Virus record (IMG/VR): IMGVR_UViG_3300031788_000005
Location: 1 to 64,000 of that record
From: a virus
Strand: one strand, 5' to 3'
DNA: 64,000 bases
Part shown: in pieces, positions 8,166 through 64,000 of the stretch
Layout: each line of letters opens with the position of its first letter
Position numbering within the stretch: position 1 is the first letter of the stretch
Notes under the pieces: generated by a model
Told to the model about the DNA's origin: nothing
Database searches by the model: none
The model's input: only the letters and a program-made list of their open reading frames with translations
Program-made: the position numbers and the translations under genes

Positions 8166-8383
8166 TACTTAATGCGAGTTTGGATTACTTGAAACTGGTG
8201 AATTTCGACGGAGTTTTTCCAATCAGGCCCAAAATAATCTTCCATTGCTTTGATTAAGTCTCGTTCGCTGTCAAAGTCGAAGACATAATCCTTGCCATCC
8301 CAAAATGGCTGATAGCGTGGAACAGAAAGACTTTTACACCATGCGCGATGCATAACGTATCCAGTTGATTGGTTGATTTCCAT
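8165..8383 (-). CDS. hypothetical protein (72 aa)
   Basis: First gene of a three-gene operon. Promoter TTGACA, 17 bp, TAAAGT, 8 nt to ATG. Contains a D-F-D-S-E-R-D helix-start segment. Unknown. Confidence 0.7.
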   Translation of the reverse strand: MEINQSTGYVMHRAWCKSLSVPRYQPFWDGKDYVFDFDSERDLIKAMEDYFGPDWKNSVEIHQFQVIQTRIK

Positions 8384-8450
8384 ATATTAGTACTTTATCA
8401 GAAGGATTAAGTTTTGTCAAGTTTTTCTTTTTTTTCTTTCATCATTTAAA

Positions 8451-8563
8451 GTTGGTTTTTGTCAATGTGTCAAAGCACCAGTATTTAGCCCCTACTGGAC
8501 GCGGCCCCAAGTATATTATGCGTCACGCTTCCATCTACTCACTAAATACGACCCATAACCAAC
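8451..8563 (-). ncRNA. structured RNA B with own promoter
   Basis: A promoter (TTGACT 8598-8593, 17 bp, TAGAGT 8575-8570) predicts a start at about 8563. There the RNA begins GTTGGTT, which pairs perfectly with AACCAAC at 8457-8451. Inside is a CCAGTA/TACTGG hairpin. No reading frame of note, so I call a noncoding RNA of about 113 nt. Class unknown. Confidence 0.55.
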
Positions 8564-8614
8564 AAAAGTACTCTAATAGAAAATTAACCAAAAGTCAAAT
8601 AAAAAATTTAAAAT

Positions 8615-8802
8615 GTCAGTGATGTTCAGGTCGCTCGCTTAGGTTTCTCATGTCAGTTACAAATGCGCTTCGCGCTCACCTAATGCCTACCCCTAACACG
8701 CCCTCAATGCATCACCAACAAAAATTAACATTGAAACGTTCACCGACTCGGCCAACCCTACGCTGTAAAGACGCTCGATTCGTCGCTTTTAACCGTTTCA
8801 AT
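8615..8802 (-). ncRNA. structured RNA A with own promoter, two domains
   Basis: A promoter (TTGACA 8837-8832, 17 bp, TAATGT 8814-8809) predicts a start at about 8802, where ATTGAAACG opens a 9-bp helix closed at 8738-8730. A second domain is closed by CATCAC/GTGATG (8715-8710 with 8624-8619) and holds a GCGC-GAA-GCGC hairpin and TTAGGT/ACCTAA. No gene lies in 8603-8831. Function unknown. Confidence 0.55.
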
Positions 8803-8833
8803 AAAACAACATTATCAGAATCATCGCAGCTTG

Positions 8834-9109
8834 TCAACTATTTTTTAAAAAAGATTTTTGAATTTCCAACAAACAATTAAATGGTTTAACTGGTTTATTC
8901 ATATCAAAACGTCTAATAAAACGCCTAGCAGAACGAGGAAGTTCAAATACTCTTCCAGAATTCATAAAATTTACTTTCCCAACAAGGGTAACTACGGTCT
9001 CAGGAATAACTACATCTTTAATTGCCAAGGCAATAGGACACCTAGCAAAATCACCACGTTTACCTAATTTAATGTGTTTTTTCTGGACTTTAATGATTAC
9101 TTTATTCAT
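8834..9109 (-). CDS. basic hypothetical protein (91 aa)
   Basis: Lys/Arg-rich with a central ALAIKDVVIPETVVTLVGKV beta segment. Second gene behind the SleB-like hydrolase, 1 bp after its stop. May be nucleic-acid or cell-wall associated; not recognised. Confidence 0.65.
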   Translation of the reverse strand: MNKVIIKVQKKHIKLGKRGDFARCPIALAIKDVVIPETVVTLVGKVNFMNSGRVFELPRSARRFIRRFDMNKPVKPFNCLLEIQKSFLKNS

Positions 9110-9110
9110 A

Positions 9111-9482
9111 TTATTTATAAAATTTCGTGTGTCCTATCACCAAAAACGGCTTAAGATGTAATACTTTGGTAAAATACCAATTGTCTATATCTCCCCCGAA
9201 GTAACGACATCCGTGAGTTATGTTGGATGTTCTAGATTCATTCCACGCCCTATTAACCCGCTCGTAAATCCTACTACTTTCATACCTATGAGCGTTGGCA
9301 CCATACACACCTTGTAAACTTCCACGCTTCCTAATTACTTCACAAATAGCTACTTGAGCAAGATATGGTTCGCCGGAACTTTCTTCAACTACTGCATGAA
9401 TGATGGTAGCAGTATCCGGCAATTTTGCCTCACATTTACTAAATAAACTACACACTAGTACTATCAATACTATAACTCTCAT
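9111..9482 (-). CDS. exported SleB-like cell-wall hydrolase (123 aa)
   Basis: An N-terminal signal peptide (hydrophobic residues 2-13, likely cleavage after CEA) precedes EESSGEPYLAQVAICEVIRK. This matches the core of the hydrolase_2/SleB family, where A-E-A-R-G-E-P-Y surrounds the catalytic Glu. The C-terminal IGHTKFYK matches the family's I-G-N-H-x-F-Y. Such enzymes cut peptidoglycan, so a lysis or entry role in the periplasm is inferred. It is shorter than typical members. Promoter TTGACT, 17 bp, TACAAT, 9 nt to ATG. Confidence 0.7.
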   Translation of the reverse strand: MRVIVLIVLVCSLFSKCEAKLPDTATIIHAVVEESSGEPYLAQVAICEVIRKRGSLQGVYGANAHRYESSRIYERVNRAWNESRTSNITHGCRYFGGDIDNWYFTKVLHLKPFLVIGHTKFYK

Positions 9483-9516
9483 ATTTATAGTATTGTATTC
9501 TCTTTTTAGGAGAAAG

Positions 9517-23144: not shown

Positions 23145-24155
23145 CTACTTTTTTGAATCGTAGTGTTTATTAATGACCTTAAAACTTCCACCGTTTTTAA
23201 GCTTAATGACAACTCCCTCAAACGGCTGGCCGTTAATTTCGGTTAATTCTTCGTCATACTTTTTAATTAATTCTGGAGTCAAAATAACACCCTTTTCCAA
23301 CATTGGAACAGTTTCAATATTAAGTATTTCAGCTACTTTTTCATAGTAGAATAAACCTTCTGTACCCTCATAATTTAATGTGTCTAAATTTAAAACACTA
23401 AATAAAGCAAAACCCAATGGCAACTTCGCATGAGGATTTACCGGACCTGCCTGAATTCCACCCCCGTAAATCTCGCCACGAAGAGCAAGATTAACTTTAA
23501 ATTTATTACAGAAATGAGTAAGTTTATTTAAAATGTCTATTTTTTTGGCAATTATAGTATAATTATTTACTGCGTCCAATTTCAAATCCATAGAACGAGT
23601 TGTAATACCAGTATCATAATGGTAATCCCAATCGGCGGTTTCTAATTCTAGCGTCTTCTCCTTACAATAGGCAGTCAAACTACTACCGTCAATTTTCAGA
23701 GTCACATCAACAATTTCACCATAAGGAATATTAAGAAGATTCTGGTATCTTTCCTCGTCAGACTTAAAAATTCCGTGGGGTAGATTACCTTTTGCATCAA
23801 GATTTTGAGGAAGAGGGGGTTCATAATGCGTTATCCCCAAAATTCCAGAGACTTCATATCCTTCTTCAGCCAAAAATGTGTTATATTGAATGATTGACGG
23901 GCTTTCGACAATACCCATCGAAAAAACACCCCTTAACTTTATGGCTCGAACCCGACTAGACTTTGCCTTGTAAAATTTAGCCCATTCTGCGTCAGGTAAG
24001 ACTGTATCTGGGGAAATAAACACAACCAAATCTTCAACCTTAAATTGGTTTCGCTTTACGATTACTTGGTAATTTAGCACCGTTACGATGGAAAGAAACT
24101 CACCGTTAGGATGGTCAATGATTGATTTAATTTTTTCAATACTTGCTAGTTTCAT
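23145..24155 (-). CDS. RNA ligase, DRB0094/Rnl5-like (336 aa)
   Basis: An N-terminal OB-like domain (residues 1-100) precedes a nucleotidyltransferase core. Motif I is LKIDGSS (Lys about 154, the AMP-accepting residue), the middle motif is RGEIYGGG, IIIa is GFALFSV, IV is EGVVIK and V is FKVINKHY. The OB-first order matches the Deinococcus-type RNA ligase family, which seals breaks in RNA and suits repair after host tRNA or mRNA cleavage. It ends in TAG abutting a promoter and follows structured leader RNA E. Confidence 0.85.
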   Translation of the reverse strand: MKLASIEKIKSIIDHPNGEFLSIVTVLNYQVIVKRNQFKVEDLVVFISPDTVLPDAEWAKFYKAKSSRVRAIKLRGVFSMGIVESPSIIQYNTFLAEEGYEVSGILGITHYEPPLPQNLDAKGNLPHGIFKSDEERYQNLLNIPYGEIVDVTLKIDGSSLTAYCKEKTLELETADWDYHYDTGITTRSMDLKLDAVNNYTIIAKKIDILNKLTHFCNKFKVNLALRGEIYGGGIQAGPVNPHAKLPLGFALFSVLNLDTLNYEGTEGLFYYEKVAEILNIETVPMLEKGVILTPELIKKYDEELTEINGQPFEGVVIKLKNGGSFKVINKHYDSKK

Positions 24156-26077: not shown

Positions 26078-26726
26078 TTTTTAGTCCATGTTTTTTTAAT
26101 TCTGCTCGGTTGAGTTGACGCTTTAAAATTATCTTAAACGACGGAGGAAAGTTAATTATTGTTTCGAGAATTATATCATGGGGTTTCAGATTAGTTGGAT
26201 TACTAATAATTCCCGCTTTTATTTGATACCAAATACCATTTAATTTATAAAGCTGATTGTAATTCCCCAAAATACGACAACGTGCATCACGTGCTTCTTG
26301 CTGTTTTTTTTGATAACTTTTCCTAGTCGGCGGGGTGTAAATACAGATAGTCTTTGAAACAGGATGAACATAAAAAATTTTTTGACCACCTTCGACTGGC
26401 ATTGCCGAATCATCGCGGTCACGCCATGGAGTAGGATAGTCGGAATAATAATAAATTTTCTTATCTTCTCCTACAAACGTATTAAATTCCAGATGACGGC
26501 GCAAATTATGGGCCAACCTAAATTCCTTGGGAACCCATTTGGCGTGAACGTAATTGTGAATAACGGTATCGACATTCTTTCCAAGATTAGATTCTAACCA
26601 ACGCTGCATTCTGCGCCATGAAAAATTCCAACCGAAATATTTATCATTTTCCCAAGAATAATCATGATTCCGTTCGCGGGAAGGAAGATTTTCTAACTTT
26701 TCTTCGCGTTGTGTTTGCCAGTTCAT
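26070..26726 (-). CDS. hypothetical protein (218 aa)
   Basis: Rich in Trp, Tyr, Arg and Lys, without recognised motif. It resembles small nucleic-acid-associated phage proteins by composition only. Start 26726 follows TTGACA, 17 bp, TAAATT by 7 nt. It overlaps the next start. Confidence 0.7.
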   Translation of the reverse strand: MNWQTQREEKLENLPSRERNHDYSWENDKYFGWNFSWRRMQRWLESNLGKNVDTVIHNYVHAKWVPKEFRLAHNLRRHLEFNTFVGEDKKIYYYSDYPTPWRDRDDSAMPVEGGQKIFYVHPVSKTICIYTPPTRKSYQKKQQEARDARCRILGNYNQLYKLNGIWYQIKAGIISNPTNLKPHDIILETIINFPPSFKIILKRQLNRAELKKHGLKND

Positions 26727-59602: not shown

Positions 59603-60040
59603 TTATTGAACGTTCCAGTGAACACCGTCTCCAAAAAAGAAACGGGTTGTTCCCGAAGGAATTGTGAATCCTGATGTAAGTGTTCCAGTGTTGAAGAAAA
59701 CAATACCAGTAGTAACACCGGATACCGCCAATCCACCACCTTTAGAAGTAATACTTAGTTCTTGTCCAATAACCACTTGTGGGAAAAGACCAGTTGATAC
59801 ACCAGCGCCACTTCCTACAACATAGGAATATCCTCCTACAATTCCACTCATTGAACCAGTCAAGATTAGTGGTGGATTAATATAACTGCCATAATTATTA
59901 ATACCGCCGCCAGTGTTGAGATTTAGTACGCCGGAAACGTCAAAGGCATATTGTGGGTTGGAATTATTAATACCAAATTGTCCTGCGTCGGTGACTGTTA
60001 GACCAGCACCTGATGTATATTGAATGGTTTCTTTTGACAT
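59603..60040 (-). CDS. tail-fibre-like structural protein (145 aa)
   Basis: INNSNPQYAFDVSGVLNLNT is the repeat unit common in phage fibre and S74-type proteins (G-I-x-T-x-P-x2-A-L-D-V-x-G). The rest is Gly/Ser/Thr-rich beta structure and FFFGDGVHW near the end. Probably a short fibre or fibre-associated virion protein. No TTGACA-type promoter is evident; TAATAT lies 9 nt before the ATG, suggesting a different (late) promoter class. Confidence 0.7.
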   Translation of the reverse strand: MSKETIQYTSGAGLTVTDAGQFGINNSNPQYAFDVSGVLNLNTGGGINNYGSYINPPLILTGSMSGIVGGYSYVVGSGAGVSTGLFPQVVIGQELSITSKGGGLAVSGVTTGIVFFNTGTLTSGFTIPSGTTRFFFGDGVHWNVQ

Positions 60041-60136: not shown

Positions 60137-60228
60137 TGGCGGTTCGCAGATATCACGCTTACCAGACGGGTTTTAACCGTCCCAATAGCTTTCCAAGCTA
60201 CGCTGGTGCCTCGACCAGTTTACGAACC
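60137..60228 (-). tRNA. tRNA-Ser(GGA), divergent T-loop
   Basis: Acceptor GGTTCGT/GCGAACC with encoded CCA, anticodon stem GTAGC/GCTAT with loop TTGGAAA (GGA), a GACGG/CCGTC variable arm typical of Ser and a D-loop with GG. The T-loop is AGCGTGA, not TTCRANN. 92 nt. Confidence 0.75.
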
Positions 60229-60232
60229 AAAA

Positions 60233-60326
60233 TGGCGGATAAGTAAAGTGCCGACCTCTATCCGTGGTATTAGCACGAATCACCTGCTTTCAAAGCAGAG
60301 GCCATCGCCGGATGGCTAACCTATCC
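60233..60326 (-). tRNA. tRNA-Ser(UGA), divergent T-loop
   Basis: Acceptor GGATAGG/CTTATCC with CCA, anticodon loop TTTGAAA (UGA), long variable arm TCGTG/CACGG, D arm GCCATC-CGGC-GATGGC with a 4-nt loop. T-loop GTCGGCA, identical to that of tRNA-Val here. 94 nt. Confidence 0.75.
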
Positions 60327-60329
60327 AAA

Positions 60330-60542
60330 TTATAAAAAATTTATTTTATCTAAATTTATTTTTGGATTAATAATAGTTTCCCCAATTTCCGTAGTCGCTA
60401 GAAATTTCCTAACTTCTTGGATTTTACTTTTATTACCCTCCCCATATTCAATCAACGCCTGCATGGTTTGATGTTCACAAATAAATTTTACATCGGAGGG
60501 AATATATTTTTCCCATAGTTTTTTAAATTGTTTATATTTCAT
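60330..60542 (-). CDS. hypothetical protein (70 aa)
   Basis: Helical, Lys-rich start. Ends 3 bp before tRNA-Ser(UGA), so transcription probably continues into the tRNAs. Overlaps the upstream gene by 11 nt. Unknown. Confidence 0.65.
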   Translation of the reverse strand: MKYKQFKKLWEKYIPSDVKFICEHQTMQALIEYGEGNKSKIQEVRKFLATTEIGETIINPKINLDKINFL

Positions 60543-60675
60543 AATATTCTAATTCAGCTATTCTTCTGGCCGCTTTTTTATCTACTCGCAAACAACGCCT
60601 TCTATGGGTTGTGTCTTTAGATTTTCGCCTTCCAGATATGCCTTTTAAAAAAGATTTACTGCTATACGGTTTCAT
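60532..60675 (-). CDS. very basic small protein (47 aa)
   Basis: Arg/Lys/Ser-rich (KGISGRRKSKDTTHRRRCL). ATGA overlap with the gene upstream. Suggests RNA binding by composition. Confidence 0.55.
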   Translation of the reverse strand: MKPYSSKSFLKGISGRRKSKDTTHRRRCLRVDKKAARRIAELEYYEI

Positions 60676-60854
60676 AATATTATTGGGTAAATTTTAGATT
60701 TGTCTTTCTGCAACTCCTTCCACATCAAAACCTGCTGACAAGCATGAATTCCATCGCGGAAATAACGTTGGTGGTCGGGATGGGTTTGTGGCAAAAGGAT
60801 AAATTTATCCCACGCTTCGACAAGACATTGCATTATTTCTTTTTCCTCATTCAT
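60672..60854 (-). CDS. helical phage hypothetical protein (60 aa)
   Basis: VEAWDKFILLPQTHPDHQRYF and a later GIHACQQVLMW match a widespread short phage family (A-W-x2-F-x-L-P-x2-H-P-x-D...F-x3-I-H). Start 60854. Function unknown. Confidence 0.65.
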   Translation of the reverse strand: MNEEKEIMQCLVEAWDKFILLPQTHPDHQRYFRDGIHACQQVLMWKELQKDKSKIYPIIL

Positions 60855-60937
60855 AAATTGGTGAATCCTTGATGGCTCACACACCACAAGCGGTTTGCCG
60901 CAGTCGTCTTTCTCATTGCAGACGAGGACTCGTAAAT

Positions 60938-61024
60938 TGGCGGATAATTACCCTCCTGCCGAGTAAACCTTTCGGTTCGCACCGTTTTCGAAACGGGCCT
61001 AGAAACTTTTCTAGTTAATTATCC
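60938..61024 (-). tRNA. tRNA-Ser(CGA), divergent T-loop
   Basis: Acceptor GGATAAT/ATTATCC with CCA, anticodon loop TTCGAAA (CGA), variable arm with AACC/GGTT, D arm CTAG/CTAG whose loop lacks GG. T-stem TACTC/GGGTA with loop GGCAGGA. 87 nt. Confidence 0.7.
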
Positions 61025-61027
61025 AAA

Positions 61028-61225
61028 TCATTGGTCTCCATCCATTAAAGTTTGTAACGTCAAAGCTGCTAGATTTGCTTTGGTAGGCCGTTCAATACCG
61101 CAGATGGGACACATTTTCCAAGATTTTGGAATATCCCTGTGTAATGAGTCCATCCACCAAGAATAGCGCCTATTTCCATCAATATATTCATGGAGATATT
61201 TAATATGGTCACACCAAGTTTTCAT
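61028..61225 (-). CDS. zinc-site small protein (65 aa)
   Basis: WCDHIKYLHEY and KMCPICGIERP form a Cys/His metal site, as in 56873-57103. Ends 3 bp before tRNA-Ser(CGA). ATGA-coupled to the upstream gene. Confidence 0.65.
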   Translation of the reverse strand: MKTWCDHIKYLHEYIDGNRRYSWWMDSLHRDIPKSWKMCPICGIERPTKANLAALTLQTLMDGDQ

Positions 61226-61425
61226 AAAGCCGCTTGCCAGAATGTATCGACTGCCCCAATCATAGTCCCTGATAAAACCCAAAAATCACCTTCTGCTCGT
61301 GGATATGGATTAGGGATAATCTCTACTTCATGTTCTCCCGCTGACAATGGCACTATGATATCTCGCGGTAGACGCATTTTAGATGCATCAATTAAATTTA
61401 ATATTCTAGTCGTAATTACTTTCAT
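61222..61425 (-). CDS. hypothetical beta protein (67 aa)
   Basis: Start 61425 follows TTGACT, 17 bp, TAAGCT by 7 nt. Beta-rich with PLSAGEHEVEIIPNPYPRAEG. Unknown. Confidence 0.65.
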   Translation of the reverse strand: MKVITTRILNLIDASKMRLPRDIIVPLSAGEHEVEIIPNPYPRAEGDFWVLSGTMIGAVDTFWQAAL

Positions 61426-61470
61426 TAATTTAAGCTTAACAAATTTTTCATTCAAAGTCAAGAAAAAAAA

Positions 61471-61545
61471 TGGAGGCTAATCAGGGATTTGTTTCGCCCT
61501 GTCTTGTAATTTACGAAATTACTGTGCATACAACACCTAAAAGCC
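61471..61545 (-). tRNA. tRNA-Thr(CGU), 10-nt T-loop and U-U acceptor mismatches
   Basis: Anticodon arm GTAAT-TTCGTAA-ATTAC (CGU), D arm GTG/CAC, encoded CCA. Acceptor GGCTTTT/ATTAGCC has two adjacent U-U mismatches. The T-stem CAGGG/CCCTG is perfect but its loop has 10 nt (CGAAACAAAT). Overall length normal (75 nt). Confidence 0.6.
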
Positions 61546-61550
61546 GAAAG

Positions 61551-61625
61551 TGGAGGACAAGCCGGAATTTACATCCGATTCCCAATTTTACCAAAATTGA
61601 ATTTTATTACATAAACTACAAGTCC
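61551..61625 (-). tRNA. tRNA-Thr(GGU), divergent T-loop and U-U mismatches
   Basis: Anticodon arm CAATT-TTGGTAA-AATTG (GGU), T-stem TCGGA/TCCGG with loop TGTAAAT, CCA encoded, 75 nt. Acceptor GGACTTG/CTTGTCC has two adjacent U-U mismatches at pairs 5 and 6. The D-loop lacks GG. Confidence 0.65.
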
Positions 61626-61639
61626 AAAAAATCATAAAT

Positions 61640-61718
61640 TGGTGCTGCGGACAGGAGTTGAACCTGCATTATTCCAATTATGCGCTTCCTCTTTAGGAAA
61701 GAGTGCCATTACCGCAGC
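61640..61718 (-). tRNA. tRNA-like RNA, apparently lacking a D arm
   Basis: Perfect acceptor GCTGCGG/CCGCAGC with A-CCA, and the only canonical T-loop in the array (GCAGG-TTCAACT-CCTGT). The first internal hairpin could be an anticodon arm with loop TTCCTAA (CCU, Arg), but then only 7 nt replace the D arm and about 20 nt form the variable region. Isotype uncertain. Confidence 0.45.
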
Positions 61719-61726
61719 GTAAAATC

Positions 61727-61834
61727 GTGCTGACTGTCTGTTGAGTTGGCAATCCCAATTAACGACCCGACAGCTAGGTGGCTCACTAAACGTGGTGTTC
61801 GGTAGCGAATCGAACGCGCCTTTGATATCAGCAC
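61727..61834 (-). ncRNA. structured RNA H in the tRNA array
   Basis: A perfect 7-bp helix GTGCTGA/TCAGCAC (61834-61828 with 61733-61727) encloses about 94 nt with no gene. It starts 4 bp after a gene stop and ends 9 bp before the tRNA-like RNA. No CCA follows. Possibly another closed RNA or a decayed tRNA pair. Confidence 0.45.
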
Positions 61835-61837
61835 AAA

Positions 61838-61987
61838 TTATTCGTCGTCCCAACCTTGAGGGACTTTCTTGCCCGTTTCCTTTTCAAACTGGCGGTGCAT
61901 TTCGTAACGCACATCACCATCGGCAGGGCCAAAATCAGCGTTGATACGAAACCATTTAAGGTATTCAAGTTCTGTTGCTTCTTCCAT
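61838..61987 (-). CDS. EYLxWFR-family small protein, copy 2 (49 aa)
   Basis: ELEYLKWFRINADFGPADGD followed by RQFEKETGKKVPQGW matches copy 1 at 56206-56385. Promoter TTGACA, 17 bp, TAATGT, 6 nt to ATG. The gene lies in the tRNA array. Unknown. Confidence 0.65.
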   Translation of the reverse strand: MEEATELEYLKWFRINADFGPADGDVRYEMHRQFEKETGKKVPQGWDDE

Positions 61988-62105
61988 ACTCAAACATTAT
62001 CATCAATGTCGGATTATGTCAAGCGAAATGGAGGAAGGAGCAAATCCCGCCTTTGACACCCCTTTCAGGGTGCGATGTGTTTAGCAAACACTCCTAGAAC
62101 CTCGT

Positions 62106-62513
62106 CTAGTTCACCTTCCATTGTTCAAAGTTTTCTGCTAATTTTACATCTGGATGTCTTTTTGAAGCAGAAAAACTAAGATAAATTTTACTTTTACCGC
62201 GAGCCAAATGCAACGGAACAAAATAGACCTTATCATTTGCTGGATAATAAATGGCAAAATAATCTATTTTGCCTTCGTAATCTTTGCTTACTTGCTGTCC
62301 CTTAATTTTGTAAGTAGATTTTCCATCAAATTCGATGCTGTTATTTACTTTTCGTCCTGTTTTTGTTTGGATGCGAATTAAATTATTATCGTCTTGAACG
62401 ATTAAATCTACACCCGTATTTTCTCCAAATGGGAGAAATGCCGTTTTCCCTAATTCCAAAACTTTAGCTAAAACTTTGGCTTCAGAAATACTTCCTTTGC
62501 TTTTTGTGTTCAT
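62106..62513 (-). CDS. PD-(D/E)XK endonuclease-like protein (135 aa)
   Basis: KGSISEAKVLAKVLELGKTAF, then GVDLIVQDDNNLIRIQTKTG (D...Q-x-K active-site pattern, residues about 34-53) and KIDYFAIYYPANDKVYFVP match the intron-endonuclease-like PD-(D/E)XK family. Sitting inside a tRNA array suits a homing or tRNA-associated mobile nuclease. Ends in TAG. Confidence 0.75.
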   Translation of the reverse strand: MNTKSKGSISEAKVLAKVLELGKTAFLPFGENTGVDLIVQDDNNLIRIQTKTGRKVNNSIEFDGKSTYKIKGQQVSKDYEGKIDYFAIYYPANDKVYFVPLHLARGKSKIYLSFSASKRHPDVKLAENFEQWKVN

Positions 62514-62553
62514 GTCTATCTAGTAATACACTAGACACGTTTCATTGGGAAAT

Positions 62554-62638
62554 TGGTCGCAATGGTGGGACTTCCACCCACAAAGGTCGGAGATTTTAAG
62601 TTTCCATGCTCTTGTATTCGCTGTCAACCCACATTGCG
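62554..62638 (-). tRNA. tRNA-Leu(UAA)-like, divergent T-loop
   Basis: Perfect acceptor CGCAATG/CATTGCG with A-CCA and perfect T-stem GTGGG/CCCAC with loop TGGAAGT. Loop CTTAAAA gives anticodon UAA, but its stem GGAAA/TCTCC has one A-C mismatch and the D arm is unclear. 85 nt, the usual length for Leu. Confidence 0.55.
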
Positions 62639-62645
62639 TTGAAAT

Positions 62646-62726
62646 TGGTGTGTTCTTTCCCACCGTCAGCAGCCAAGGGAGCGGCTTTACCAGCCATCCT
62701 CGGTATCGTTTTGTGCGAACGTATAT
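62646..62726 (-). tRNA. degenerate tRNA-like sequence, perhaps Tyr
   Basis: Ends in A-CCA and fills the gap between two tRNAs. A GGC/GCC hairpin with loop TGGTAAA would give anticodon GUA but with G at position 33. The acceptor pairs only in its centre (GTTC/GAAC) and no T arm forms. Probably a decayed tRNA. Confidence 0.3.
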
Positions 62727-62803
62727 TGGTGCGCCCCCTCGGTAATGCTCCGAGTCCTATCGGGTAAGAGCCGATTGCTTGCCACTATTAGAGCTTGGAA
62801 CGC
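62727..62803 (-). tRNA. tRNA-Lys(CUU) copy a, divergent T-loop
   Basis: Acceptor GCGTTCC/GGGGCGC, A-CCA, anticodon arm ATCGG-CTCTTAC-CCGAT (CUU), T-stem CTCGG/CCGAG with loop AGCATTA; D-loop contains GTGG. 77 nt. The whole T arm is identical to that of tRNA-Thr(UGU). Confidence 0.8.
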
Positions 62804-62809
62804 AGTAAA

Positions 62810-62885
62810 TGGTTGTCGTGACAGGTGCCGACCCTGCTAAATTCTCCATGTAAAGGAGATAATCATGCCGATGATACTCACGACA
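62810..62885 (-). tRNA. tRNA-Val(UAC), divergent T-loop
   Basis: Perfect acceptor TGTCGTG/CACGACA, A-CCA, anticodon arm TCTCC-TTTACAT-GGAGA (UAC), D arm ATCAT-CGGC-ATGAT, T-stem GCAGG/CCTGT with loop GTCGGCA. 76 nt. It shares the short CGGC D-loop and GTCGGCA T-loop with tRNA-Ser(UGA). Confidence 0.8.
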
Positions 62886-62891
62886 GTAAAA

Positions 62892-62966
62892 TGGATGCCT
62901 GTGATGGTGCTGCCCCATCGCCTCGACTTTCAGAGAGTCGCGAACTACTGTTATTCAGAACAGGCA
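62892..62966 (-). tRNA. tRNA-Gln(CUG), divergent T-loop
   Basis: Perfect acceptor TGCCTGT/ACAGGCA, T-CCA, anticodon arm CGACT-CTCTGAA-AGTCG (CUG), perfect T-stem GATGG/CCATC with loop GGCAGCA. The D arm is reduced (CTG/CAG, no GG). 75 nt. Confidence 0.8.
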
Positions 62967-62972
62967 ATAAAA

Positions 62973-63143
62973 TTACTTTTCTTGTAATGATTCAGAATGA
63001 CCGCATTGTGGACATTTCCAACATCTAACAAGTTTTCCTTCTGAATAATGAGTGTATTCTGTTTTAATATTTTCATCAACAAAATCAACAGACTCACCCA
63101 ATTTTAAATTAATTTTGCAGTATTTACATTTTTTATTTTTCAT
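62973..63143 (-). CDS. zinc-ribbon protein (56 aa)
   Basis: CKYC near residue 6 and CWKCPQCGHSE near 41 form a zinc ribbon. It ends 6 bp before tRNA-Gln, so it shares the tRNA transcript. Unknown. Confidence 0.6.
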   Translation of the reverse strand: MKNKKCKYCKINLKLGESVDFVDENIKTEYTHYSEGKLVRCWKCPQCGHSESLQEK

Positions 63144-63200
63144 AAATTTAAAATCTCAACAAAAAGGTTAATTCTTCGCTGAGAATCCAAGGTATATTAC

Positions 63201-63267
63201 TACCCTTGAAAACCCCTATGGTGCACTTTAACCATTCCCCTTGCAAAAAGAACAAGCGTTAAGGGTA
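63201..63267 (-). ncRNA. tRNA-sized closed RNA or decayed tRNA
   Basis: TACCCTT/AAGGGTA forms a perfect 7-bp terminal helix around about 53 nt. It includes CTTGT-TCTTTTT-GCAAG, an anticodon-like arm with UUU but C at position 33. No T arm or adjoining CCA. Further hairpins follow to 63150. Confidence 0.35.
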
Positions 63268-63429
63268 CTAAATCTCTCTAATCCACTCCGTAACTGGAAT
63301 AAATTTTTCACATTTACAATTAGGACATTTTTTAAAAACCTCGTCTAAATTAAAAATCTCAGAACATCCTATGCATTTTTTGAAATTTTGCAATCTTGGT
63401 TTAATTTTGTAATAATCTTTGATTTTCAT
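63268..63429 (-). CDS. zinc-ribbon protein (53 aa)
   Basis: CIGC near residue 19 and CPNCKC near 35 form a zinc ribbon; basic N-terminus. Its ATG lies 4 nt after the CCA of tRNA-Thr(UGU), so tRNA 3' processing would leave a nearly leaderless message. Ends in TAG. Confidence 0.6.
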   Translation of the reverse strand: MKIKDYYKIKPRLQNFKKCIGCSEIFNLDEVFKKCPNCKCEKFIPVTEWIREI

Positions 63430-63433
63430 AAAA

Positions 63434-63508
63434 TGGAGCCAAGCCTCGGTAATGCTCCGAGTTCTCTCGATTACAAGTCGAGTGCATCACTTTGTATGCT
63501 TGCAAGGC
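63434..63508 (-). tRNA. tRNA-Thr(UGU), divergent T-loop and U-U mismatches
   Basis: Anticodon arm CTCGA-CTTGTAA-TCGAG (UGU), D arm GCAT/ATGC, T-stem CTCGG/CCGAG with loop AGCATTA, T-CCA, 75 nt. Acceptor GCCTTGC/GCTTGGC has two adjacent U-U mismatches at pairs 4 and 5, as in the two other Thr tRNAs of the array. Confidence 0.75.
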
Positions 63509-63513
63509 GAAAT

Positions 63514-63589
63514 TGGTGCATCCTGTCGGAACTGCCCCGACATCCCATTCCTTAAGAGGGAAGGCTCTATCTCGCTGAGTTAAGGATGC
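63514..63589 (-). tRNA. tRNA-Lys(CUU) copy b, divergent T-loop
   Basis: Perfect acceptor GCATCCT/AGGATGC, A-CCA, loop CTCTTAA (CUU) on a 4-bp stem TTCC/GGAA with one mismatched pair, perfect T-stem GTCGG/CCGAC with loop GGCAGTT. 76 nt. Second Lys(CUU), with a different body from copy a. Confidence 0.7.
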
Positions 63590-63604
63590 AAAATTATTAA
63601 TATA

Positions 63605-63814
63605 TTATTTAATTTCTAAATTATCTAGAACTTCTATTAGTTTAACATCCAAAATTTGGGCATCATCTTCTGTTAGAGAGCGGTCATAAATCAAACCTTT
63701 CGTAGGAGAACCGTATCTCCAATCTTTCCAGTATTTTTTACCATCTCTATCTTGCCAAATTGTTGTTCCACCGTCACGAATTGTATTAATTTTCTTAACC
63801 AAAATTTCTTGCAT
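63605..63814 (-). CDS. hypothetical protein (69 aa)
   Basis: Charged, with TTIWQDRDGKKYWKDWRYGS in the middle and an acidic helical end. Promoter TTGACA, 17 bp, CATAAT, 6 nt to ATG. Lies between tRNA groups. Unknown. Confidence 0.65.
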   Translation of the reverse strand: MQEILVKKINTIRDGGTTIWQDRDGKKYWKDWRYGSPTKGLIYDRSLTEDDAQILDVKLIEVLDNLEIK

Positions 63815-63858
63815 ATTTTTATTATGAATGAAGTTTAGATTTTTGTCAAGGAGAAAAA

Positions 63859-63933
63859 TGGTCCCAGTAGAAGAAATTGCATCTTTAACTCCGAATGACT
63901 TATGAAATCACCGTTCCACTCTGGATTACTGGG
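63859..63933 (-). tRNA. tRNA-Met(CAU)-like, divergent T-loop
   Basis: Perfect acceptor CCCAGTA/TACTGGG, A-CCA, anticodon arm GTGAT-TTCATAA-GTCAT (CAU), T arm with loop TGCAATT (G for U at 55) and a 4-bp stem. 75 nt. Could decode Met, or Ile if C34 is modified. Confidence 0.7.
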
Positions 63934-63938
63934 AAAAA

Positions 63939-64000
63939 TGGTGGACATTTCGTGTTACGCTCACGACTTTCAACTTTTTCAGAGTTGCACTTTCACTAGA
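63939..64000 (-). tRNA. tRNA-Phe(GAA), 5' end beyond window
   Basis: A-CCA end, 3' acceptor strand AATGTCC, perfect T-stem TCGTG/CACGA with loop AGCGTAA, and anticodon arm CAACT-CTGAAAA-AGTTG (GAA). The 5' acceptor strand lies past position 64000. Confidence 0.7.

Follow-up and report, generated by a model that had tools for sequence, protein, structure and literature searches.

Near the end of the IMG/VR virus record IMGVR_UViG_3300031788_000005 lies a dense array of tRNA genes whose T-loops depart almost throughout from the expected consensus, which raises the question of whether these genes encode working tRNAs and, if so, why their elbows differ. The 64,000-nucleotide stretch analyzed here, referred to as the window, comprises positions 1-64000 of this 83,067-bp virus contig, which can be described as a tailed-phage-like genome because it encodes RIIA/RIIB homologues, ThyX, an RNA ligase, dUTPase and dCMP deaminase. 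The contacts G18-Psi55 (pseudouridine at position 55) and U54-A58 are taught as near-universal in elongator tRNAs, and an earlier note on the window had proposed that the changes would remove the usual T-loop fold. Our analysis points instead to an almost complete tRNA set, very probably functional, in which the elbow is compensated and which may be kept as a backup pool, an overall reading to which we attach a probability of about 0.7.

Extent of the array and its T-loop classes

The array was delineated with a relaxed cloverleaf scan that required a 7-bp acceptor stem, a 5-bp anticodon stem with T33, a 5-bp T stem and an encoded CCA, and that accepted any sequence in the 7-nt T-loop. On the minus strand, 31 regular CCA-bearing cloverleaves were found between contig positions 60137 and 75452, beyond the end of the window, compared with 0-1 in each of ten shuffles; the array with non-canonical T-loops is thus real and larger than the earlier note described. 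Ten of the 31 fall within the window or cross its end (the last at 63939-64014). The scan returned no tRNA on the plus strand of the contig and one doubtful match outside the array, at 26509. With about eight irregular tRNA-like members beside the regular ones, the array holds about 39 genes in 15.3 kb, and its anticodons cover nearly all amino acids. It therefore has the makeup of a tRNA array unit, with dense tRNA genes and many anticodons in one element, and its regular members have the 7-5-5-bp stems, 7-nt anticodon loop, T33 and CCA of functional tRNAs.

A covariance model (R1) trained mostly on tRNAs from other contigs yielded 29 full-length matches between contig positions 59800 and 79799, with no match in the first 60,000 positions of the window, so that the two approaches suggested in the earlier note, a scan with a relaxed T-loop and a covariance search, recover 31 and 29 tRNAs, respectively, in the array region. 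Three in-window tRNAs were added by R1 to those from the relaxed scan (61640-61718, 62554-62638 and 63434-63508), bringing the count in the window to about 13-14, some of them irregular. The earlier note had counted thirteen; a regular tRNA was confirmed neither at 61722-61815 nor at 62640-62722, the site of its Thr-GGU tRNA. The same array is present in a near-identical second contig (G001). A search with RIIA recovered a near-identical contig only, the RIIA matches in known phages being distant; a search with the RNA ligase found no relatives of the phage.

Among the 31 regular tRNAs, TTCRA occurs in two and TTAGA in one more, giving three loops of the form TTNRA and leaving the ordinary TTCRANN consensus to a small minority. 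The remaining regular T-loops fall into the groups U54-G55-N-R-A58, A54-G55-C-R-U58, G54-G55-C-R-G58 and G54-U55-C-G-G58, with a few singletons. In the window, AGCRTNA loops are found in the tRNAs starting at 60137, 62727, 63434 and 63939, GGCRGNN loops in those starting at 60938, 62029, 62892 and 63514, GTCGGCA loops at 60233 and 62810, and TGNAANT loops at 62554 and 63859, while the single TTCRA loop, TTCAACT, belongs to the element at 61640-61718. These four classes and the lone TTCRANN loop, as seen with the relaxed scan and R1, are those recognized in the earlier note. Most tRNAs have another base in place of U55, and many in place of U54 or A58, so that the target bases of Psi55, 5-methyluridine 54 (m5U54) and 1-methyladenosine 58 (m1A58) are absent, as had been pointed out; G18, the target of TrmH, is likewise lost wherever position 55 is G.

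Standard tools see little of this array. ARAGORN reports 11 tRNAs across the array region and none within the window, and the Rfam tRNA model at its gathering score retrieves 12 from the contig, only one of them among the roughly 14 present in the window. The recovery rate of ARAGORN is 1/41 for the G55/G54-G58 class and 13/44 for the G55/A54-U58 class, compared with 98% for ordinary tRNAs. Because the altered-elbow classes are missed in this way, common tools underestimate the number of phage tRNAs in such elements.

Compensation between the D-loop and the T-loop

The tRNA elbow comprises three contacts (PMC4810234): residue 18, which intercalates between 57 and 58, reaches 55, and the pairs 19-56 and 54-58 complete the set. 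Covariation at these contacts was assessed in a viral set of 843 tRNAs from 118 contigs, using counts that are not tree-aware. The strict count for 18-55 was confined to viral tRNAs with an 18-nt D region, thinned at 85% identity and with pattern-selected tRNAs left out; owing to the fixed length of the D region, positions 18 and 19 are placed without alignment freedom. A second, elbow-blind sample was collected using only the D-stem sequence, with positions 18, 54, 55 and 58 left free. The 18-55 counts were restricted to these unbiased viral samples because the pooled set includes bacterial loci fetched by a pattern fixing A18G19 and G55; that pattern cannot select tRNAs with a residue other than C at 56, and 19-56 counts from the pooled set are therefore valid.

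Where position 55 is G, A18 replaces G18 in the D-loop. In the strict viral set the 18-55 combinations are G-U in 149 tRNAs, A-G in 28 and others in six, indicating that a change at 18 or 55 singly almost never occurs (6/183). The elbow-blind sample gives the same picture, with G-U in 107, A-G in 7 and others in 3 (n=117; Fisher p 2.6e-19 when every tRNA of this kind in the elbow-blind contigs is counted). At 54-58, viral tRNAs thinned at 85% identity have U-A (624), A-U (35), G-G (26), A-A (10) or C-A (7), and position 60 shifts from a pyrimidine to A together with A54-U58 or G54-G58. Only the helices show higher mutual information than 18-55 and 54-58. In tRNAs with a base other than C at 56, residue 19 is nearly always the complement of that base, as shown by A19-U56 in 19/20 (control 8%), U19-A56 in 8/9 (25%), C19-G56 in 4/5 (11%) and, with A18, C19-G56 in 5/7 (2%), the control rates being quoted because the placement of 18-19 is ambiguous in long D-loops. 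Three of the five A18 tRNAs with C19-G56 come from the phage studied here (72212 Leu, 73411 Leu and 64398 Arg). All six combinations of U55 or G55 with U-A, A-U or G-G at 54-58 occur, consistent with modules that combine freely.

The tertiary pairs 18-55, 19-56 and 54-58 are thus all present, as compensated pairs. Because they covary almost perfectly, the contacts between the D-loop and the T-loop are kept by compensation, and the loss of the usual T-loop fold envisaged in the earlier note is not supported. The elbow has, on this sequence evidence, almost certainly been rewritten by compensatory substitutions. Relatives that share an anticodon arm but have a canonical T-loop, which had been named as grounds for rejecting the observation, do exist: of two tRNAs (L084 and L433) that are 93% identical elsewhere, one carries A18/G55 and the other G18/U55. 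As the D-loop changes along with the T-loop, such opposite elbows on similar tRNAs represent elbow switching and not an artefact.

Compared with canonical tRNA (Rfam RF00005), the phage array retains the cloverleaf, CCA, T33 and the contacts 18-55, 19-56 and 54-58, and differs in having matched alternatives to G18-U55, U54-A58 and sometimes G19-C56. The eukaryotic initiator tRNA, whose T-loop has A60, offers a partial parallel, since its 54-58 pair is likewise purine-purine and its A60 recurs in the rare ATCGA class and the array G54-G58 classes; its U55 and G18 are unchanged, whereas the array classes are mostly elongators and include A54-U58 as well as G54-G58. Among ordinary cytoplasmic tRNAs the T-loop positions are conserved, with the A54-A58 of eukaryotic initiators the special case (PMC7912444). 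Loops of the eukaryotic initiator type (A54-A58, A60 and U55) are absent from the regular tRNAs of the contig and number 18 in the wider set. Zagryadskaya, Doyon and Steinberg reportedly obtained in 2003, from a randomised library, suppressor tRNAs with G54-A58 or G54-G58, and G54-G58 is said to have worked in E. coli and to have been modelled as mimicking U54-A58. Those laboratory suppressors were library-derived, and the natural arrays described here add A60 and a compensated 18-55 pair across whole sets.

The conservation of structure bears directly on the possibility that an altered elbow labels RNAs that are kept off the ribosome or soak up an enzyme, or that the genes are pseudogenes. 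Several array members are irregular, and the staphylococcal tRNA-Gly used in cell-wall synthesis, which lacks the normal elbow bases, is a parallel. Against this stand the helices, T33, R37, CCA and tertiary pairs, all kept and compensated, the coverage of nearly all amino acids, and the occurrence of the same elbow in apparently essential host tRNAs, leaving such a decoy or degenerate origin very unlikely. The array very probably encodes functional tRNAs.

In structural terms, the rewriting consists of matched swaps, with G-U becoming A-G at 18-55 and U-A becoming A-U or G-G at 54-58, the latter accompanied by a change of residue 60 from pyrimidine to A, and with an occasional exchange of G-C for C-G, U-A or A-U at 19-56. 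The purine at 18 would still intercalate between 57 and 58, and the outer face of the 19-56 pair, on which RNase P and the L1 stalk of the ribosome rely, would be preserved. There can be no Psi55 without U55, no 2'-O-methylguanosine 18 (Gm18) without G18, no m5U54 without U54 and no m1A58 without A58. Such tRNAs would retain the L-shaped fold and would be expected to function in translation although they lack Psi55 and Gm18 and, in many cases, m5U54 or m1A58.

Distribution of altered elbows and reasons for keeping them

Of the 605 tRNAs in the elbow-blind viral sample, 11% are non-canonical and about 89% canonical, and the non-canonical fraction varies between contigs far more than expected by chance (permutation 0/5000). 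Alteration is nearly complete in several viral contigs (L063, 20/20; L083, 10/11; the studied phage, 26/28 or 93% by a stricter score), and another array is altered in 17/17 tRNAs. RIIA of the studied phage is not shared by L063 or L083, and whole altered arrays occur in unrelated viruses as well as in metagenome-assembled genomes (MAGs) of Verrucomicrobia and Planctomycetota. An isolate, Erythrobacter phage XM05 (PV416404, L370), encodes two tRNA-Val in which a GGCAGGA T-loop is combined with A18; its tRNA region contains 15 tRNA genes by our scan, none annotated in the record.

Single cellular tRNAs also carry A18-G55, including tRNA-Phe(GAA) of SAR11/Pelagibacteraceae (40 loci, L135-L245), tRNA-Cys(GCA) of Patescibacteria (L139-L247) and Gly tRNAs of the same group, archaeal Ala-CGC and others. 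Because the fetch pattern fixes A18G19 and G55, these loci prove occurrence only; since single cellular tRNAs have it, the A18-G55 elbow is compatible with normal life. Such tRNAs would be expected if a host lineage used these elbows and the phage had captured its tRNAs, which is nevertheless the least probable of the alternatives considered, as the cellular loci seen represent one or two isoacceptors and not a whole set, and no canonical tRNA in the set shares more than 66% identity with the phage tRNAs once the elbow is left aside.

The changes could also reflect independence from modification with no attacker involved, in that phage tRNAs have to function within minutes of infection, and an elbow with A18-G55, G54-G58 or A54-U58 that is stable without TruB, TrmH, TrmA or TrmI would suit fast or modification-poor settings. 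Each altered class loses at least one modified base, the same change appears in single tRNAs of small genomes (SAR11 Phe and Patescibacteria Cys), and Psi55 is ranked as probably the earliest T-loop modification (PMC7912444). This explanation is rather unlikely given that the large majority of phage tRNAs in the elbow-blind sample keep the canonical elbow, and it leaves unexplained the RNA-repair genes found beside bacterial arrays.

Those bacterial arrays, on contigs from Verrucomicrobia and Planctomycetota MAGs, are almost entirely altered (at loci biased by the search pattern). RtcB is encoded on five Verrucomicrobia array contigs, inside the array or within about 4 kb of it; in other array-bearing MAGs RtcB lies on different contigs or the array contigs are short. 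One contig (L515) has the gene row RtcB, HD-AAA_33 (PNK-like), RNA ligase and ADP-ribosylglycohydrolase, and on another (L517) an RF-1-domain gene adjoins RtcB, a layout resembling the known RtcB-PrfH repair pair. Burroughs and Aravind reportedly described in 2016 RtcB/PNK/RNA ligase repair systems whose RNA partner is said to be a tRNA-like molecule or Y RNA; the Verrucomicrobia arrays resemble them in having RtcB, HD-AAA_33, RNA ligase, Band-7 and RF-1-domain genes alongside, and differ in that the RNA is a whole decodable set of altered-elbow tRNAs. These neighbors point toward RNA damage, although they are not proof of it. Fully altered arrays occupy the islands at 2615-6707 in L515, 2768-4544 in L517, and 8330-9496 and 14052-16936 in L523, and Schlafen AlbA_2 and Band-7 genes are also among the neighbors in these islands. 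The Planctomycetota array contig has one chromosomal-type gene, and no phage gene was seen on it. In two array MAGs the best-scoring tRNAs elsewhere are canonical, a comparison in which the score favors canonical tRNAs and binning errors are possible.

This distribution bears on neutral compensatory drift, in which partly redundant array tRNAs would wander unselected among equivalent pair sets. The many pair sets, the degenerate appearance of some genes and the sporadic switches in single phage and cellular tRNAs are all in keeping with drift. It predicts mixtures, however, whereas whole arrays are nearly 100% altered and others 0%; lone changes at 18 or 55 are almost absent, and in the two MAGs the top-scoring tRNAs away from the arrays have canonical elbows. 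We consider drift unlikely.

Selection could alternatively act on the DNA. Integrases and homing endonucleases commonly target the T-arm sequence GGTTCRANTCC, which might have been altered to escape them, with tRNA function kept by compensation. HNH, GIY-YIG and PD-(D/E)XK genes lie within the phage array, and a conserved HNH gene is found upstream of the Verrucomicrobia arrays. Homing-type endonuclease genes are equally a feature of ordinary phage tRNA arrays, however, and the sites they recognize are normally long and particular to one gene; to escape cutting, it would also be enough to change 55, without A54-U58 or G54-G58. Escape at this level is thus distinctly improbable.

We favor, tentatively and at somewhat less than even odds, the view that the reason for the array is an attack-resistant backup tRNA pool. 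Enzymes and toxins reading the usual elbow bases would miss the altered set, which would be held as a unit because it remains usable while ordinary tRNAs are attacked; the element would therefore carry a second tRNA pool in parallel, which in bacteria often has RNA-repair genes next to it. A T-loop tRNase, CdiA-CT E479, is known among interbacterial toxins (PMC9086364). More speculatively, and on balance doubtfully, mobile elements and some bacteria could hold a complete second tRNA pool whose alternative elbow code is a self/non-self mark on tRNA, such that elbow-reading ribotoxins or modification enzymes hit the ordinary pool only and the arrays with RtcB/PNK/RNA ligase act as replace-and-repair modules against attack on translation.

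Several observations weigh against a protected pool of working tRNAs. The phage has neither RtcB nor a PNK domain, both of which were looked for, and its RNA ligase is not specific to viruses with altered elbows, an RNA ligase being carried by about 6/7 viral records rich in altered elbows compared with 5/10 other tRNA-bearing viral records (above 80 kb), with no clear enrichment. No T-loop-directed nuclease was found in the present analysis. Two Ile tRNAs with C55 (69493-69570 and 73700-73777; GAT and TAT) fall outside every elbow class, and the irregular members at 61471, 61640, 62029, 62554, 63434, 63859 and 69960 mean that some genes may be decaying.

The tRNA array units described from phages, plasmids and bacteria are the same kind of dense cluster on a mobile element, serving most amino acids (PMC5966550, PMC6409571). 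Text searches of these two papers for loop terms gave no mention of deviating T-loops or D-loops. Literature searches for A18/G55 and G54/G58 pairs, which covered few subscription papers, likewise found none, and within that coverage tRNAs with a systematic alternative elbow have not previously been described. Elbow pairs here behave as exchangeable modules across whole arrays in viruses and bacteria, providing a natural-variation test of elbow function, of the purpose of its modifications and of its readers, and we suggest that the RtcB-linked Verrucomicrobia arrays offer a direct experimental route to function.

Array genes in the window and minor features

All array genes in the window lie on the minus strand. 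The A54-U58/G55 elbow, with A18 G19 in the D-loop, is exemplified by tRNA-Ser(GGA) at 60137-60228 (T-loop AGCGTGA), tRNA-Lys(CTT) at 62727-62803 (AGCATTA; also found by R1) and tRNA-Phe(GAA) at 63939-64000, continuing to contig 64014 (AGCGTAA), all three from the relaxed scan. The tRNA-Thr(TGT)-like gene at 63434-63508 (AGCATTA; R1 39.1 bits) has two acceptor-stem mismatches, and the same two adjacent mismatches in mid acceptor stem recur in another AGCNTTA-class tRNA at 69960-70033. The relaxed scan also identified tRNA-Ser(CGA) at 60938-61024 (GGCAGGA with G54-G58 and G55; A18 G19) and, together with R1, tRNA-Gln(CTG) at 62892-62966 (GGCAGCA; A18 G19), a second tRNA-Lys(CTT) at 63514-63589 (GGCAGTT; A18 G19), tRNA-Ser(TGA) at 60233-60326 (GTCGGCA with G54-G58 and U55; G18 G19) and tRNA-Val(TAC) at 62810-62885 (GTCGGCA; G18 G19). 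In tRNA-Ser(GCT) at 62029-62119 (GGCGGGA; relaxed scan) the T stem is weak and the variable arm long. The tRNA-Leu(TAA)-like gene at 62554-62638 (TGGAAGT with G55 and G56; R1 27.2 bits) has an irregular D arm, as does the tRNA-like element at 61640-61718 (Rfam tRNA 30.2 bits; R1 33.2 bits), and a tRNA-Met(CAT)-like gene with TGCAATT was located at 63859-63933 by the relaxed scan. The tRNA with a 10-nt T-loop mentioned in the earlier note corresponds to an element with an encoded CCA at 61471-61549, and its poor fold makes it doubtful as a tRNA.

Homing-type endonuclease genes (HNH, GIY-YIG and two PDDEXK_5) are scattered through the phage array, one of them a PD-(D/E)XK open reading frame (PDDEXK_5, E 2.4e-27) on the minus strand at window 62106-62513, equivalent to L009 2307-2714; the other coordinates are L009 4804-5937, 6907-7590, 10763-11170 and 11488-12012, and contig 74429-74818. 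Far from the array, the RNA ligase, with a possible role in RNA repair, is encoded on the minus strand at 23145-24155 (PHROG 968, E 1.9e-40; PF09414).

The loops of the two C55 Ile tRNAs (GAT and TAT) are TCCTCAA and ACATCAG. Initiator-like phage CAT tRNAs, recognized by a 1-72 mismatch or a GGG anticodon stem, have A18-G55 in 51/70 cases in a pattern-biased set, with examples in L032, L084, L112 and others. The variable region is 16-19 nt in Pro-TGG, Lys-TTT and Asn-GTT and only 5 nt in Leu-CAA, and variable arms at odds with the anticodon are found at contig 64566-64655, 69396-69485, 70129-70216 and 73411-73488; these misfits are possibly identity oddities or anticodon shifts.

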